A stretch of DNA of 33,231 nt from a virus. Below, piece by piece: positions 22,221 through 32,833 of this stretch. Where the stretch lies: IMG/VR virus record IMGVR_UViG_3300023099_000117, positions 1 through 33,231 of that record. One strand, given 5' to 3'. The position numbers were made by a program, and so were the translations under genes. Under the pieces are notes generated by a model. The model was not told the origin of the DNA. It saw only the letters and a list, made by a program, of their open reading frames with translations, and searched no databases. Within the stretch, counting starts at the first letter, position 1. Every line of letters begins with the position of its first letter.

Positions 22221-22255
22221 AAAAAAAGAACCCGCTTCTTAAAACAAAGCAGGCT
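22221..22255 (-). terminator. Intrinsic terminator of the small RNA / SRAP operon
   Basis: On the minus strand AGCCTGCTT pairs with AAGCGGGTT (nine pairs, two of them G-T), with a 9-base loop, followed by CTTTTTTT. Anything transcribed leftward from the SRAP operon or the small RNA promoter should stop here, so the late operon needs its own promoter. Confidence 0.75.
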
Positions 22256-22415
22256 CGTAGTGGACTTACTAATCTCGGTATCAAAGCTTGCAACCTTTCC
22301 GGGATTGGTATTTGTGGTAATCTTCTTTAGGTAGAAGTAAATATGATGGACAAACTCTGCATCTGCTGTAACAGTAGGTGCAGTTTTATTTAAATCATCT
22401 ACTTGTGTACCGTTC
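22221..22415 (-). ncRNA. Candidate independent small RNA (about 195 nt)
   Basis: A full promoter (TTG-N19-TATATTTG) and an intrinsic terminator frame about 195 bases that hold no ATG-started frame longer than 12 codons. Inside is an imperfect hairpin, 22358-22382, whose arms pair TGCA/TGCA and CTG/CAG with two mismatches. This is the best explanation for the gap between the SRAP gene and the late operon, which otherwise has no gene over 22256-22568. An alternative is a decayed gene: one minus frame without ATG stays open for over 100 codons through this region and across the terminator. Confidence 0.5.
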
Positions 22416-22568: not shown

Positions 22569-23252
22569 TTAGAAAAGAGATAACTGTGGCGCAGGTGGTG
22601 GATCTTGTCCAGCTACAGGTTCTGCAATCAATTTAGGGTGGTAGTTTGGAAAACCAAATTCCATGTAAGGGATTTTCGTATCGAGCCATTGGCGCTCATC
22701 TTCGGGATTTAGCATCAGCGGCATCCGATGGTAGTCTTTTTCAGCGTCTTTATTGTGCACAAACTTCATCCGGTCGTTAGCTTCAGTTGTCAGAACCGTG
22801 TATGAATTATAGGTTGAGCCATCATGGTTGACGTATGTAGAATACAATCCGGCGAGTGAAAAAATTTCTGTTTCAGGATGCCATATTTCGTAAAGAGTTT
22901 TAGTCTTTCCTTTAGGGTCGTTCCAGTGGTGCTCGAAGTACGATGTTGCTGGTACGAGGCACCGCTGGTGCGAGATATTTTTATAAGAACTTCGCTTGTG
23001 TAAGTATTCCAGTTTTGCGTTGTAGGTACTATTCCAGATTTTATCTATCGGTCCGCTCCAATGAGACGGTACCAGTCCCCAATGAAAATTTGTATCGATA
23101 ATTTCGGGTGTTTCGGTTCTGACGATTGGACACGTATCGTGATCGAACGCGTATTGGCGAGGGATAATCCCTTCCCGCAACATATCGATCGCAGCTCCAT
23201 ATTTTTTGATCAGATTTTTATAGTCAGTTTCGAGTTTCTTAATGTTGCACAT
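22569..23252 (-). CDS. SRAP (YedK/HMCES-like) protein with C-terminal beta-clamp motif
   Basis: SRAP proteins form a covalent thiazolidine bond between Cys2 and abasic sites in single-stranded DNA and so protect them. I chose ATG 23252 because it puts Cys at position 2 (MCNIKK); the frame extends five codons upstream. Other family residues are visible: Asn78 (TYNAKLE), Glu107 in RCLVPATSYFEH and His175 in YHRMP. The 227-residue protein ends APQLSLF; QLSLF equals the consensus of bacterial sliding-clamp binding peptides, comparable to the PCNA box at the end of animal HMCES. It overlaps the glycosylase gene by 14 bases and is the last gene of its operon. Confidence 0.9.
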   Translation of the reverse strand: MCNIKKLETDYKNLIKKYGAAIDMLREGIIPRQYAFDHDTCPIVRTETPEIIDTNFHWGLVPSHWSGPIDKIWNSTYNAKLEYLHKRSSYKNISHQRCLVPATSYFEHHWNDPKGKTKTLYEIWHPETEIFSLAGLYSTYVNHDGSTYNSYTVLTTEANDRMKFVHNKDAEKDYHRMPLMLNPEDERQWLDTKIPYMEFGFPNYHPKLIAEPVAGQDPPPAPQLSLF

Positions 23253-23862
23253 GGTGGCAGTATTCACAAACTTTATTTAAAATACACTCATCGTGTTTAG
23301 GATTTGTCGGACGGCAAACTTCTGCGCCCAGCCTTGTTAGAGCCAGACCGACATCACTCCACATTTCTTTTGGTAGTATGTTCATCAAATCTTTTTCCAT
23401 TTTATCTGCGACTTTAGCATGGGAAATACCCAATCGGTCAACGACTCTCAAAACATGTAAGTCAACAACAATGCCTTCAGCTTCCACACCGGCATAATGC
23501 ATAATTACATTGGCCGATTTGCGCCCGATGCCGCTCAGTGCAGTCAAACTTTCCATTGTCGTTGGGAACTCTTTGTCTTTAAGTTCTTCAGCAATTGACA
23601 ATATCCAATCTGATTTTTTTAGTGAACCTCGTACTTTTGAAAAGAACTCGTAAAGTTCAGATGGATTTGCTTTTGATAAAGATTTGAAGTCTTGATATTT
23701 CTCGAAAAATGGAACCGTTACCTGGTTTACTTTAGCATCCGAATCCCGCGCTGCCAATAAAATCATAATCAGCAGTTGGTACATATTCTTGAATTCTAAC
23801 GGATGATCGGCATCCTTATATTTTTCGATAAGTGGCTGTAATGCCAAAGCCCAATTGGTCAT
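23239..23862 (-). CDS. Endonuclease III-like DNA glycosylase / AP lyase
   Basis: Base-excision enzyme of the HhH-GPD family. The 207 residues include the helix-hairpin-helix SGIGRKSANVI with the catalytic Lys115 and VVDLHVLRVVDRLG with the conserved Asp134. A C-terminal set of four cysteines is expected to hold an iron-sulfur cluster, but the spacing here is C-x9-C-x5-C-x2-C and not the usual C-x6-C-x2-C-x5-C. The ATG at 23862 overlaps the upstream stop as ATGA; an upstream start at 23901 would sit inside the neighbour. It is immediately followed by SRAP, an abasic-site binder, so its reaction product is the substrate of the next gene's product. Which base it removes is unknown. Confidence 0.88.
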   Translation of the reverse strand: MTNWALALQPLIEKYKDADHPLEFKNMYQLLIMILLAARDSDAKVNQVTVPFFEKYQDFKSLSKANPSELYEFFSKVRGSLKKSDWILSIAEELKDKEFPTTMESLTALSGIGRKSANVIMHYAGVEAEGIVVDLHVLRVVDRLGISHAKVADKMEKDLMNILPKEMWSDVGLALTRLGAEVCRPTNPKHDECILNKVCEYCHHVQH

Positions 23863-24227
23863 ATACTGATTGTAAAATAATGATCTTGTAACTCGCGCCA
23901 ATGTTTTTTAACGACAAGCGTTTCATAATTGATGGATTCACGCACATGCTTTAATGTCTCGTGTTTCGCTTCCTTATAGCCCGCAATCATACTTTCCTCC
24001 AAATGCGTCAGCAGGAAAACAAAAACCCTGCTCCTTTTACTTGCGACCTGCTGCTTGTACTCTACGGTTCTGTCATCGCTGTCAAATATCTGGATATTTA
24101 CTAAAACCGACCCTTCTAAGCCTTGACTGAGGTATGCTGACATGTAGTCATCAATCACATCGTCATTGAGATAATGAGATGCTATTGGCGATCCGAACTG
24201 GCATAGTACTGCTACTGGCTTAGTCAT
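23859..24227 (-). CDS. Unknown small protein A of the glycosylase-SRAP operon
   Basis: A 122-residue soluble acidic protein with alternating strands and helices (KPVAVLCQFGSPIASHYL at the start; SRVFVFLLTHLEESMIAGYK then QDHYFTISI at the end). The C-terminal half resembles that of the next gene upstream (FVxLL, E-x-x-x-I-x-x-YK, HYF/HFVI), suggesting an old duplication. Both its ends overlap neighbours by ATGA, so it is translated as part of a four-gene unit with the glycosylase and SRAP. No known family is recognised. Confidence 0.7.
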   Translation of the reverse strand: MTKPVAVLCQFGSPIASHYLNDDVIDDYMSAYLSQGLEGSVLVNIQIFDSDDRTVEYKQQVASKRSRVFVFLLTHLEESMIAGYKEAKHETLKHVRESINYETLVVKKHWRELQDHYFTISI

Positions 24228-24622
24228 ACTGTTTCGTCAAAAATGTTTTCAACTGCGTCTCCATGTGCGATCACAAAATGGTTATCATTGCCATTCATGT
24301 AATGTTGATGAACTGTTGTAATTGACGGTTCAAAAATATCATACACATAATCTGAGATTGCCTGAGGATCGGCTTTGTAGTTTTCAATCAGGTCAAGATC
24401 CTCGAATGCAATCACAAGTAGCACGAAAGTATCCGACGTTTCAGTTTCGTCATCGGCCGGATGGTCGATCTCTCCCTGATAGAGCCCTGCATCTAACAAG
24501 TCAGCAGTTTTAATATTTTCATGAATCCAAGTCGCCACCTTTTCGTGGTTGTAATCATGGCCACCAATCATGAAGTCATCAATCGGGGCGTTTATTTTGT
24601 ATTGTAGGATTGCGGTTTTCAT
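24224..24622 (-). CDS. Unknown small protein B, first gene of the glycosylase-SRAP operon
   Basis: A 132-residue acidic protein (MKTAILQYKINAPIDDFMIG at the start, TFVLLVIAFEDLDLIENYK in the middle, DNHFVIAHGDAVENIFDE at the end). Histidines and aspartates are frequent, but no catalytic motif is recognised. Similar in its C-terminal half to the following gene. It begins the operon and diverges from the plus-strand gene at 24762, with a 139-base control region between. A weak -7-like TATCTTTA occurs upstream on the minus strand near 24682. Confidence 0.7.
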   Translation of the reverse strand: MKTAILQYKINAPIDDFMIGGHDYNHEKVATWIHENIKTADLLDAGLYQGEIDHPADDETETSDTFVLLVIAFEDLDLIENYKADPQAISDYVYDIFEPSITTVHQHYMNGNDNHFVIAHGDAVENIFDETV

Positions 24623-24713
24623 AGAATTTATTTTTAAACACGATATACTTCAGCGAAATCTCTGTCTCGCTTTTTTATTAAAGATAAAAATAATTTTTGA
24701 ACAGCAGTGTTAA

Positions 24714-24749
24714 TGTTGTTATTGACAACAAGGTTGTTTTCTAACTTTG
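24714..24749 (+). promoter_or_regulatory. Promoter with overlapping dyad for the plus-strand gene
   Basis: TTG (24722-24724), a 17-base spacer and TAACTTTG (24742-24749) match the Bacteroidota promoter. A dyad TGTTGT-TATTG-ACAACA (24714-24730) covers the -33 element and may be an operator shared with the divergent operon. Confidence 0.6.
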
Positions 24750-24761
24750 ATAAAAAAAATT

Positions 24762-26865: not shown

Positions 26866-27933
26866 TTATAATCGGTGCTGCTTGATTTCTCTATTAAAAT
26901 AAGCCAAGTAATAATACATCTGCTTTTCTTCATCCCAGCCTTTTTCTAAGAACCGTTCGGCGCTTTCCGGATTGATGAAGTCCAATTTAATTTGGATATT
27001 CGTATCCAAGTTGATGACATTTTTGATTTGCTTGCGCGCATCGGTTACGGCCGTGTTTGAGATTTGGAAATTTGAAACATCTTCAATACTATATTTCTCG
27101 CCTTTGTCAACTTTGTAGTTTTTGAATTCGGGAATTAAATCGGGATTGTCTAAAACTTCATTTAAGAAATTCGTTTCCTCGAATTGGTCGTTTTTTGCAA
27201 AATAGTTTACCGAACGATTCAGGAACATGATCTCTTCTTTCTTATCTTCAGCTGGCAGTACTACATCTTTGGCAAAGCCTTGACAGAATTTAAGGTACTT
27301 TCTGGTAATGAAATTCTCATCTTCAAATGCATCCACTTGTAGAAAATGCTCCAGCCAATATCTGGCATCGTAACGGTTGCTGTCCACGGTCAGGACTTTG
27401 TAACCTTCGTCCTTTTTGTAATTGAAAATGATAACGCCTTTGTCCAATTTATCCAGAGATGTACCATGTTTCAAATTCATTTCAAGCCTACTTTCCTTTT
27501 CGTTGAATTCAAGAAAGTCAGACTGCAGTTCAGATTTGAAAACTCCTATGGCATCCACAATTTGATTATCGATTGAAACGTTTGTCAGATAGGCAACATA
27601 CACCTCGCCGTTTTTGATGTGTGGATGATTCGACTGGTCAAACAGATGTTGAGTGATCAGTTTTGAAATTCGGTGCAACGCGGACGGCTGCTCGAAGATT
27701 TGACGGCATAGGTTGAACATGTCATTATATTCCAGATCGACCTCGTGTGAGAACTGGTAATACATCTCTTCTTTTTCCCTGAACGGTTTTAAAAAGAATT
27801 CTTTTAACAGTGGTGTGATTTCATCGTTTAGACGATAAGGAGCCTCGGAAATAAATATCGGCTCGTTCCGGCTTTTGTTTCCAACTTTGTGGAGTGAAAG
27901 CGTTTCAATCTGAGTGTTGTACAAGTTGATCAT
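26866..27933 (-). CDS. Nucleoid-associated protein (NdpA/YejK family)
   Basis: A 355-residue soluble protein resembling the 37-kDa nucleoid-associated family. It has IFISEAPYRLNDEITPLLKEF near the start, VYVAYLTNVSIDNQIVDAIG in the middle, KGVIIFNYKKDEGYKVLTVD and then DARYWLEHFLQVDAFEDENF, and a C-terminal YYYLAYFNREIKQHRL. Members bind the bacterial nucleoid; their exact function is unclear. A phage or mobile-element copy in an accessory region may be involved in host chromosome control or be a component of a defence island. It is divergent from the DUF3606 gene. Confidence 0.72.
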   Translation of the reverse strand: MINLYNTQIETLSLHKVGNKSRNEPIFISEAPYRLNDEITPLLKEFFLKPFREKEEMYYQFSHEVDLEYNDMFNLCRQIFEQPSALHRISKLITQHLFDQSNHPHIKNGEVYVAYLTNVSIDNQIVDAIGVFKSELQSDFLEFNEKESRLEMNLKHGTSLDKLDKGVIIFNYKKDEGYKVLTVDSNRYDARYWLEHFLQVDAFEDENFITRKYLKFCQGFAKDVVLPAEDKKEEIMFLNRSVNYFAKNDQFEETNFLNEVLDNPDLIPEFKNYKVDKGEKYSIEDVSNFQISNTAVTDARKQIKNVINLDTNIQIKLDFINPESAERFLEKGWDEEKQMYYYLAYFNREIKQHRL

Positions 27934-29191: not shown

Positions 29192-30100
29192 TTATTTACC
29201 ACAGACTAATCCGCAACTGGTTATTGATAATATGTCGATGAAATTTTCATCATCGGAATTTGGTGTAATTGTCAATCGTTTTTCTGCCATCACCTTTTCA
29301 ATTATTTTAATGATCGCTTTGATTCTCTTTTCGATAATCGCATCCTGGTTAGCAATTATTTTTTCTAATGGATAATCTTTGCCATTCCAAAAGAAATCCG
29401 AACCGTTATGCTCCATTTTCATTGCATTCTTGAACAATTCCGGTTCATGCCTTAGCAATCCAACCCATTCATATTTCATTTGATTAAAACAGAAATAGCA
29501 ATTGGCGCGAGTTCTCCACGAAAAAAGCATATCGATAACCCATTCTGGCAAAATTGCTTTTAAATCTAAATTCATTCGGGTACAAACTTTGTCGTATACT
29601 TCCTGCCAAAAGAAAGTTGGCGGTTTCAATCCTGCATTTTTAATAATTTCGTAAACCATCCGCAAATTAATTCCAGCCTCAACCAATGGATATTTCGGAT
29701 AAATGTTGCGCTTTGAAGCATTATTATAACCACTCCGATCTTCATCGGCCCGGATTCCGTAGTAGACAAAACACGGTGTACTTCCAATGTAATTTTCCAT
29801 TGGCACCATTTTACTCTGTTTCGTGCAATACCTATCATTCCATGATGGAAGAAAGCCACCGCGCTCAGTTGTAATTATGTATTCTAAATTTTTACCTACA
29901 CGGACTATCGGTTTTCCTAAGTAAATTTCAACTCGATCAAGCCAGTCAAAAACTTGTGGCAATTCCGCACCGGTCGGATTAAACATAAATTCATAGGGTA
30001 AATTCGGTTCTTTCGCCATTTGCCACAATGCAGTTGCAAGGCTGTCTTTTCCAGAAATTGGAATGATGTGACGTTCTTCTAAAAACAAGTCTTTTTGCAT
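29192..30100 (-). CDS. PAPS reductase-like (PP-loop) adenine nucleotide hydrolase family protein
   Basis: The N-terminal PP-loop IPISGKDSLATAL (Ser16-Gly-Lys-Asp-Ser20) is the ATP-pyrophosphate site of this family. Further typical segments are FNPTGAELPQVFDWL, the RYCTKQSKMVP cysteine and ANCYFCFNQMK, and a C-terminal SCGLVCGK. These cysteines may bind zinc or an iron-sulfur cluster. At 302 residues it is a normal length. Related proteins in bacteria reduce activated sulfate or sulfurate nucleic acid (DndC type); in phages the substrate is usually unknown. It is 25 bases downstream of the helicase-methyltransferase, so a DNA-modification role is possible but unproven. Confidence 0.8.
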   Translation of the reverse strand: MQKDLFLEERHIIPISGKDSLATALWQMAKEPNLPYEFMFNPTGAELPQVFDWLDRVEIYLGKPIVRVGKNLEYIITTERGGFLPSWNDRYCTKQSKMVPMENYIGSTPCFVYYGIRADEDRSGYNNASKRNIYPKYPLVEAGINLRMVYEIIKNAGLKPPTFFWQEVYDKVCTRMNLDLKAILPEWVIDMLFSWRTRANCYFCFNQMKYEWVGLLRHEPELFKNAMKMEHNGSDFFWNGKDYPLEKIIANQDAIIEKRIKAIIKIIEKVMAEKRLTITPNSDDENFIDILSITSCGLVCGK

Positions 30101-30125
30101 TTTTATAGATTTAATATTTCAGGCA

Positions 30126-31724
30126 TTACGACAGAATATCAAACAATGTTGGAACATTGATTTTGTACTCGATTGATTTCAGGTAGAACAAACCGTCATC
30201 ATAATATGCAGGGTTCAGCTCAGCAGATATCGCTTTGCGTTTCATTTCCAAAGCTTTGTAAGGAGTTGAGAAAAGACCTCCAAATGGATCATCTACCACA
30301 TCACCTTCGTTTGTGAACCTGTAAATCAACCGTTCGATAATATCAAGCTGCAACGGGCAAATGTGCTTTTCTTTCTTACGGTTCACCTGATTGGCGTTAA
30401 GAGTAAGCATCCTGTTTACGTCGGTCCAAACGAGATCATTTGAGCTGGTAGGTGGAATTGTCATGTACAACTTCGATAGTTTTCCGACTGCATCCAGATC
30501 ATTGCACACTCTCAAGTGTTCCTGAAAATCGTAAATGTTTTTCATGTCGTAGTCTTTCCACTTGTTGAAAACATACTTCATGTCAGCAGTTGTAAGTTCC
30601 TCTGAACTTAGAAAGCGATCACCAGATGATTTCCAATAAGCATGTGCATCGAGCTGCCAAAGTGAAAGCAAATACGCATCGATCTTTTTAATTACGGGAT
30701 CATCTGCATAAGCGTTATTCATTTCCGTTGGGCGCTTTCTGAAAAGCAAAACATATTCCGGTAGACCAACTCCCATTTTAGTAGCATCTTTCCGTTGTTC
30801 TCCCCATGTTAAGCGATATGTTTGATTGTTTTCACGAACCACGTCAGTTGTGATTGTTATCTTACCAACCAAATAGAATCCGTGCTTTTCAAAGTGTGCA
30901 ACAGTCTGTCCGGAAAAATCTGAGATAGTTGTAAATGAAGTTCCGTTTTGATAACTGTAACGTATCCTGTCTTTTACATGGATCGCAGCTATTCTACCTG
31001 GCTTTAAAGTTCGCAGCAGATTTGGCGTAAGGAAATCCATTTGCTTAAAAAATTCAGCGTTACCATGGTTATGTCCGAAATCATTATAATTATCTGAGTA
31101 TTCGTAATGATCGCCAAAAGGAATTGAAGTGAGAATCATGTCGGTCGAGTTATCCGGCATTTCTTCATGTACAATTGTCGTATCGTTATTGTGTACCGTT
31201 GCGCCGCCAATGGTCGCGGTTCTGATATTTTCAAATATTTGTCGTTTCATGTCTTCTGTAATTTTGTCGATGTTGAGGCCGTATTCACGCACCAGATTGA
31301 TCATTTCGGTTTGTAGCTCGATATGCTTGCGCCACTTTTCTTTTAGGGTTTTAAGTACGTCCCTTTCGTTTTGAGTAAACAACACGTAAATGTCTACTTC
31401 ATGCATTTGACGGAATCGGTACACACGATGCACCGCCTGTATGAAGTCATTGAATTTGTAATCAATACCGACAAAGATCATTTTGTGGCAAGCATGCTGG
31501 AAGTTGCATCCGGATCCTGCGATCTTTGGTTTTGTAGAAAGTATCTGGTATTTGGTATGTTTGAAATCAATCAACAACCTTTGCTTTTCATCGTTCGATT
31601 GTGATCCGTAAACGGACCGTAAATCAATCCAATCATCCTGTTTAAACTTCTTTTCGATTGCAAGCCGTTCCGCTTCCAAATGGCTCCATAAAATCCACGT
31701 TTCGGCATTGTCGGGAGTAATAAA
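30126..31724 (-). pseudogene. N-terminally truncated SNF2 helicase-DNA methyltransferase fusion
   Basis: The product starts within a SNF2-type helicase C domain: residues encoded from about 31715 read PDNAETWILWSHLEAERLA, followed by AGSGCNFQHACHKMIFVGID (motif V) and QAVHRVYRFRQ (motif VI). Behind it (about 155 onward in the ORF) is a beta-class DNA methyltransferase with motif IV TSIPFGDHYEY and motif I DDPFGGLFSTPY, then AELNPAYYD. The reading frame runs back to a stop at 31725-31727 without an ATG and without the first ATPase lobe (Walker A and B), so the gene is cut. A start at the TTG at 31679 is unconvincing. The methyltransferase part may still be intact. It is 25 bases upstream of the PP-loop gene. 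Confidence 0.8.
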
Positions 31725-31993: not shown

Positions 31994-32833
31994 ATGGATA
32001 TATCAAGAAATATTGCTCAGTTAAAGAAACTTATAGAAACGTCAAAAGACATTGAACATAATTTTTCAAGTTCAAGTTTTAAAACTTGGATTAATAATGT
32101 CGAGAGAGTTTTTGCTAAAGTATTTGGTAAAAATTCTGTAGAAATGAAACATTTACAAGAATTAGATTTTTGTTATAACGACCTTGAGTATGACGATCAT
32201 GATTATACAAGAGAATATCGATTAGCATTTGATAATGATTTTAATATCCTTATATCATCAATTGAAACATATCTTGAGGATTTAGATGAAGAAGTGAAAA
32301 ATTCTTTTGTGGATGAACCAAGGATAATTGGAAATAAAAAAATCAATAAAGTTTTTATTAGTCATTCCTCATTAGACAAAAACTTTGTCGAAGAATTAAT
32401 TGAAATTCTTGAATCCACTGGATTAAATAATTCTCAGATTTTCTGTTCTTCATTTAACGGATACGGCTCTGAGTTCGGAGAAAACTTTTTAGAACGAATC
32501 AAAACCGAACTTGATAGCAATATTTTAGTTTTATTCTTACTATCAAGTAATTTTTATAATAGCCCCGTATCGCTCTGCGAAATGGGCGCGACTTGGATGA
32601 AGACAAATATTCATATTCCGATTCTTATTCCACCTTTTGATTTCAATGATATGAAAGGGGTTATTCCATTAACCCACGGATTTAAAATTAATGATTCCAT
32701 AGCTTTAAGTCAATTTAAATTACAAATAGAAAAAATATTTGAAATTGAAGGTTCGGCCAATTTGGTTTGGGAAAGAAAAAGAGATAAAATTGTTAACAGG
32801 ATAACAGAATTACTCAAGAAAAACAACCTATAA
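31994..32833 (+). CDS. TIR-domain protein with an unknown N-terminal domain
   Basis: Residues 118-235 form a TIR domain: KVFISHSSLDKNFVEELIEI (strand A and helix), then SQIFCSSFNGYGSEFGENFL, ILVLFLLSSNFYNSPVSLCEMG with the expected NAD-cleaving Glu196, and a C-terminal IPILIPPFDF. The first 110 residues are a helical domain (FKTWINNVERVFAKVFG, YTREYRLAFDNDFNILISSI) unlike common sensor domains. Prokaryotic TIR proteins usually act in antiviral defence by NAD depletion or signalling once a sensor is triggered. The composition is AT-rich and unlike the phage genes. It stands alone between repeats, with the attC-like site starting at the last codons. Function as defence is inferred. Confidence 0.8.
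   Translation: MDISRNIAQLKKLIETSKDIEHNFSSSSFKTWINNVERVFAKVFGKNSVEMKHLQELDFCYNDLEYDDHDYTREYRLAFDNDFNILISSIETYLEDLDEEVKNSFVDEPRIIGNKKINKVFISHSSLDKNFVEELIEILESTGLNNSQIFCSSFNGYGSEFGENFLERIKTELDSNILVLFLLSSNFYNSPVSLCEMGATWMKTNIHIPILIPPFDFNDMKGVIPLTHGFKINDSIALSQFKLQIEKIFEIEGSANLVWERKRDKIVNRITELLKKNNL

Follow-up and report, generated by a model that had tools for sequence, protein, structure and literature searches.

An apparently mobile phage cassette that joins two new small proteins to an SRAP protein with a predicted clamp-binding tail

Introduction

Proteins of the SRAP family, which includes YedK of E. coli and human HMCES, share a Met-Cys start and the signatures NA[RK].E, [FY].E and HN/HRMP. 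YedK cross-links the 3′ aldehyde ends made by DNA lyases (PMC9436759), and human HMCES has been proposed to travel with forks via a C-terminal PCNA-binding motif (PMC8053108). The position of SRAP genes beside those of translesion polymerases is a known context of the family (PMC3765255). In SOS mutasome operons (UmuCD, ImuA-ImuB-DnaE2, DinB), SRAP is likewise part of a DNA-damage operon. Clamp binding in bacteria has its own consensus motif, QL[S/D]LF, which PolC of B. subtilis carries as QLSLF at its C-terminus (PMC12309361).

Abasic-site chemistry has also been linked to phage biology through a glycosylase. Brig1 is a defence enzyme, mainly monofunctional, that acts on alpha-glucosyl-hmC; it shows that the making of abasic sites can serve hosts as a weapon against phages (PMC11078745). 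The locus described here, which belongs to a phage, places an SRAP gene in one operon with the genes of two small proteins, A and B, and of an endonuclease III (EndoIII)-like glycosylase. Its core, A-B-SRAP, is a variant of the known SRAP operons with new A/B protein(s).

The locus and its phage

The window, that is, the whole stretch of DNA that was analysed (33,231 nucleotides, the IMG/VR record IMGVR_UViG_3300023099_000117), represents a 33.2-kb virus with integrase, portal protein and small terminase genes. The large terminase shares 56% identity with its counterpart in Croceibacter phage P2559Y, and the phage is therefore assigned to a Bacteroidota type. None of the ORFs of the record that were scanned was identified as a DNA polymerase or a clamp. 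The four genes lie on the minus strand in the order A, B, glycosylase, SRAP from upstream, with overlaps of 4, 4 and 14 bp (Table 1), just where a sequence-only reading of this DNA had put them. Two of the program-made ORFs begin further upstream than the starts used here: that of the glycosylase at a TTG, and that of SRAP at a GTG, 15 bp ahead of the ATG from which the Met-Cys start is read. Positions 22228-22383, where 970 bp separate the SRAP gene from that of the small terminase, hold two strong terminator-like hairpins, one per strand.

Table 1. Features of the cassette and their positions in the window
Feature	Position	Strand	Remarks
Protein A	24224..24622	-	132 aa; no known family; probable paralogue of B
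Protein B	23859..24227	-	122 aa; probable paralogue of A
EndoIII-like HhH-GPD glycosylase/lyase	23239..23862	-	207 aa counted from ATG; between B and SRAP
SRAP (YedK/HMCES family)	22569..23252	-	227 aa from ATG giving Met-Cys
Glycosylase codon 190 (His replacing second Fe-S cluster Cys)	23293..23295	-	
SRAP C-terminal QLSLF, consensus beta-sliding-clamp-binding motif	22572..22586	-	
Non-coding stretch conserved upstream of A	24670..24754	-	contains TATCTTTA

A conserved unit of three genes

Proteins A and B were found in just two further IMG/VR contigs, one of 48.3 kb and one, a fragment, of 8.5 kb. In each relative the genes A, B and SRAP keep their order and spacing, and the place between B and SRAP holds no glycosylase, so that the conserved unit is A-B-SRAP; all comparisons of the cassette rest on three copies, one of which contains the glycosylase. 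A profile search, positive in 14 of 14 control genomes, detected no HhH-GPD gene in either whole relative record. The conserved neighbourhood expected by the sequence-only reading thus exists in both relatives for A, B and SRAP and fails for the glycosylase, which was rejected as a conserved partner of the cassette. Nor is the idea of a conserved pathway from glycosylase to SRAP supported, given the absence of the former from both relatives, the 48.3-kb contig over its whole length included.

DNA identity with the relatives is about 75-77% inside the cassette and almost nil outside it. Beyond its borders no convincing DNA match of the window to either relative was found, except for 86 bp that directly precede A in the 48-kb phage. 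A single window protein has a relative in that phage (27% identity over part of its length), and only the small terminase has one in the 8.5-kb contig (36%). As phages that otherwise share almost nothing are this similar here, A-B-SRAP behaves as a horizontally moving phage cassette. The stretch upstream of A, 79% identical over the 86 bp with the 48-kb phage (L049), is bordered on its far side by a divergent gene that differs between the two, and is probably the promoter/operator of the cassette. Matches to sigma-70-type promoters were no commoner than chance.

Among the three phages dS is at least 1.5 or saturated, and dN amounts to 0.08 for A, 0.17-0.18 for B and 0.10-0.17 for SRAP. With synonymous sites near saturation and dN at just 0.08-0.18, the three genes are no chance ORFs, and strong purifying selection acts on every comparable gene of the cassette. 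In Bacteroidota genomes the small proteins did not turn up: the profile of A had no match in 395 genomes, and a joint A+B profile reached only an unconvincing E-value of 0.013 at best in an overlapping sample of 376, both being searches without a positive control. Neither were A or B seen among the examined neighbourhoods of cellular SRAP or glycosylase relatives.

SRAP and its C-terminal tail

The SRAP protein matches PF02586 with an E-value of 7.5e-33 and 114 bits (gathering cut-off 27.1). In all three phages it starts with MCN, which gives the catalytic Cys2 after removal of the methionine. Alignment to 2f20 and to cellular relatives places the active-site residues at N78 and E107, with H166 (in VHN) or H175 (in HRMP) as the candidate histidine. 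By sequence it is a true member of the family. Even the nearest cellular SRAPs share only about 37-42% identity with it. A 5-residue insert ahead of HRMP, the fixed C-terminal QLSLF and its partners, A and B in place of UmuC, ImuB, DnaE2 or DinB, set it apart from the family.

SOS mutasome operons hold the nearest cellular relatives of the phage protein. In three Bacteroidota loci (L112-L114), SRAP lies directly downstream of Y-family and DnaE2-type polymerases, as the last gene of a mutasome operon. The same polymerase genes are found nearby in L139, and a Y-family polymerase adjoins SRAP in L116 and L118. The phage cassette, unlike these operons, has no polymerase, ImuA/B or UmuD-like gene. 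On the cellular side, too, the proposed glycosylase-SRAP pathway finds no counterpart: the relatives of SRAP keep company with mutagenic polymerases, and those of the glycosylase do not lie near SRAP.

In all three phages the protein ends exactly in QLSLF followed by the stop codon, after a proline-rich linker that varies. The codons of these five residues differ synonymously in each phage (CAGTTATCTCTTTTC, CAATTATCACTTTTC and CAATTATCATTGTTC). Because the codons differ and the linker drifts while the peptide stays the same, selection must act on the peptide itself. Each of the three proteins presents QL[S/D]LF (more generally QxxLF) in an accessible tail, and SRAP is predicted to bind the beta clamp of the host through QLSLF.

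Similar tails occur outside the cassette. In a sample of 56 non-cassette SRAPs (loci L008-L081 and L137-L138), bacterial and archaeal with one from a Leptospira phage, 23 (about 40%) have L[FW] among their eight C-terminal residues; shuffled sequences give 1.7 (sd 1.3, about 3%). The same tail is present in 15 of 573 other ORFs, and the next upstream blocks of the 56 SRAPs give 0-3 hits. Many of these tails are QxxLF-like and many are loose matches; archaeal ends read QATLF or QSTLF. A C-terminal QxxLF/LF could thus serve the SRAP family in general as a motif for binding the clamp or PCNA. The closest cellular SRAPs, those of L112-L114, have no clamp-like tail. A literature search of partial coverage found no paper that describes a clamp-binding motif in bacterial YedK/SRAP proteins.

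Proteins A and B

Protein A contains 27 Asp/Glu and 5 Lys/Arg residues (pI 4.2, net charge -22), and across the three phages its net charge is about -19 to -22 in some 130 residues, which makes it the most negative per residue among the 122 ORFs of these phages. It is 85% identical in both relatives and is the best-conserved gene of the cassette at protein level, with B at 74-75%. Neither has a match in Pfam, NCBIfam, PADLOC or, by sequence, among solved structures, which bears out the novelty claimed for them earlier; PHROGs returned nothing for A and one sub-threshold match for B (E 0.04).

The two proteins resemble each other. Comparison of their profiles with hhalign gives an E-value of 0.0019 at a probability of only 14.6%. 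Local alignments of A with B score z 4.0-7.2 over shuffled sequences in 9 of 9 pairs, as opposed to at most 2.2 for A or B with 20 other phage proteins. Their joint alignment retains F-V, an H, a D and an F in the C-terminal part, and other positions. AlphaFold models are of low confidence (pLDDT 67 for A and 54 for B), and both have the order strand-helix-strand-strand-helix-strand; a fold search with them gave no match for either. The case for A and B as paralogues of each other is thus strong but not proven, and they represent new protein families, either two separate ones or a single paired one.

A profile match of A to the anti-CRISPR chain 23aa_A (E 0.022) was rejected, as it reflects acidic composition, runs into an apparent His tag and is not found by a single-sequence search. 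DNA-mimic inhibitors of the Ugi, Ocr and ArdA type are strongly negative, as is A; its low-confidence model gave no fold match. Ugi inhibits uracil-DNA glycosylase. Strong acidity makes a DNA mimic possible for A and does not show it. Since neither protein has an assignable fold, their roles are guesses. The simplest is that of accessory partners or regulators of the SRAP step, which is also the most likely one, because both are always found with SRAP and exist without the glycosylase. For the latter reason A and B cannot be general specificity factors of the glycosylase, a role once suggested for them.

The glycosylase

The glycosylase matches PF00730 (HhH-GPD) with an E-value of 1.9e-12 and the NCBIfam model nth (TIGR01083) with 3.2e-40 and 137.8 bits, below the equivalog cut-off of 211.7 bits. 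It is accordingly classed as an EndoIII-superfamily member that is not canonical Nth; both enzyme identities proposed from the sequence alone thus stand. Lys115 (in GIGRK) and Asp134 (in VDLH), the catalytic residues shared by Nth and its Bacteroidota paralogues of the HhH-GPD fold family, are retained, from which, on knowledge of the family, glycosylase/lyase chemistry is expected. The abasic-site chemistry suggested for the operon fits the intact catalytic residues of this enzyme and of SRAP.

An extra EndoIII paralogue occurs in addition to a canonical Nth-like gene in 24 of 296 Bacteroidota genomes (about 8%; L082-L105), and these paralogues are 43-53% identical to the phage protein. The paralogue group carries the signatures HPL[DE]Y, GRKSANVI, VDLH and CRPTNPKC and is distinct from canonical Nth. 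The phage protein shares HPL, GIGRKSANVI, VDLH and CRPTNP with it. In a tree it falls inside this subfamily with L086 and L089 (support 98/86), the subfamily is split from canonical Nth at 100/100, and the phage branch is long (0.75). This nesting means that the gene was most likely captured from a Bacteroidota host chromosome. The three copies of the cassette fit either a gain in the window phage or two losses in the relatives. The cellular paralogues are chromosomal housekeeping-type genes that stand alone, with neither SRAP nor a conserved neighbour of evident relevance nearby, in contrast to the phage gene in its operon with SRAP.

The phage protein departs from Nth and the paralogues at its cluster. 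Three of the four Fe-S cysteines are kept and the second is His190 (Cys in 24 of 24 cellular subfamily members), leaving the four-Cys [4Fe-4S] set of the endonuclease III superfamily incomplete; an extra Cys occurs in CEYC. In all it differs at 9 of 56 near-invariant positions, this cysteine and Arg180 to Ala among them, where cellular members differ at 0-4. Its activity may be altered or lost. The one base-modification gene seen in the window codes for an ordinary N6/N4 adenine/cytosine methyltransferase, which leaves the modified-base target of the sequence-only reading without footing, and a hypermodified base was rejected as target. A phage Nth family was also considered for the phage collection. 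The annotated record H8 is a bacterial chromosome (rnfB-nth-adk) and the other 'phage' matches appear to be unannotated contigs from hosts or fragments; no such family is therefore shown.

Discussion

Somewhat better than even, in our judgement, are the chances that A-B-SRAP is a clamp-tethered abasic-site shield in which A and B have accessory or regulatory parts and the glycosylase is an optional add-on. What we infer about clamp binding, capping in vivo, the roles of A and B, the coupling of glycosylase and SRAP and the glycosylase substrate fits together as follows. The cassette would protect phage or prophage DNA at the replication fork. SRAP would ride on the host's beta sliding clamp through its C-terminal QLSLF, find abasic sites in exposed template and cap them covalently via Cys2; probably it would also cap the 3′-unsaturated-aldehyde ends left by lyases. 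Capped in this way, the genome would be neither broken by AP endonucleases or lyases nor copied mutagenically. A and B, made together with SRAP, would serve as accessory partners or regulators of capping, and the acidic A may mimic DNA and in that way act on a repair protein that binds DNA.

In this phage only, the glycosylase would remove some damaged base and so supply abasic or 3′-PUA intermediates to SRAP; alternatively, SRAP would rescue products left unfinished by the EndoIII-type lyase that shares its mRNA. As YedK cross-links to the 3′ ends that lyases produce, a co-transcribed EndoIII-type lyase could feed SRAP, a coupling that is conjecture because one cassette of three has the glycosylase. 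Less likely than not is a broader picture, in which phages trade an A-B-SRAP that hijacks the host clamp to cap abasic sites, bacterial and archaeal SRAPs are in general clamp clients via a C-terminal motif that corresponds to the PCNA motif proposed for HMCES, and A and B are a new family that regulates SRAP as a pair, with a DNA mimic as one member.

That the cassette serves counter-defence seems unlikely. SRAP, with A and B, would here shield phage DNA from a host defence that acts via abasic sites by means of a glycosylase, an AP endonuclease or a nuclease, and A, as a mimic, would inhibit a DNA-binding host enzyme as Ugi does. Phage-only, mobile, small and co-transcribed genes, an extremely acidic A and the precedent of Brig1 would suit such a function, but acidity alone does not make A a DNA mimic, and a glycosylase in the same operon would be senseless for a pure shield. 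The precedent itself is imperfect: Brig1 targets alpha-glucosyl-hmC, a base of which the window gives no sign, and its immunity is unchanged by loss of the host's own yedK (PMC11078745). Unlike Brig1, the phage glycosylase is of the EndoIII type, has a lyase lysine and is encoded inside a phage, and PADLOC gave no match to a glycosylase defence system for it. On present evidence the cassette does not appear to be a Brig1-type defence.

Slightly less likely again is a loose collection, in which SRAP and glycosylase are independent repair morons that share a promoter, and A and B act elsewhere, for example in host takeover. Morons often stack at one site, and none of the cellular relatives examined has glycosylase and SRAP side by side; against this, A, B and SRAP stay together, tightly overlapping, in three otherwise unrelated phages. 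It is highly improbable that the operon is an attack module, whose glycosylase/lyase damages competing or host DNA while SRAP, A and B keep the DNA of the phage itself safe or control the damage. The shared operon, possible regulators in A and B and the defence cargo implied by an SpbK-like TIR gene speak for it; against it are two of three cassettes that lack the glycosylase, the housekeeping type of its relatives and the weak match to a generic nicking-endonuclease model that is PADLOC's only one for it.

Of all the leads the clamp motif is worth most, and it is no part of what had been hypothesised for these genes. It is fixed in three phages, and similar tails are present in about 40% of sampled SRAPs; it offers a direct, testable answer to how bacterial SRAPs reach abasic sites, and tethering to the clamp would parallel the way in which human HMCES is proposed to be held at forks. 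A and B are two tractable new proteins, and their inheritance together with SRAP suggests a regulatory or assisting role. With the cassette, the protection of abasic sites would become part of phage biology, in which immunity based on a glycosylase is already known.

Other genes of the window

A TIR-domain gene at 31994-32833 (plus strand) matches the SpbK defence model of PADLOC (E 5e-38); it and the integrase lie at opposite ends of the record, and it is a phage-borne defence cargo. At 29192-31679 (minus strand), a PAPS-reductase-like gene that matches SspD (E 4e-55) adjoins that of a protein that combines a helicase C-terminal part with an N6/N4 DNA methyltransferase (PF00271 and PF01555); no Ssp genes other than the SspD-like one were identified. 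The minus strand also codes, at 26866-27933, for a phage homologue of the 37-kDa nucleoid-associated protein (PF04245, E 1.4e-50).
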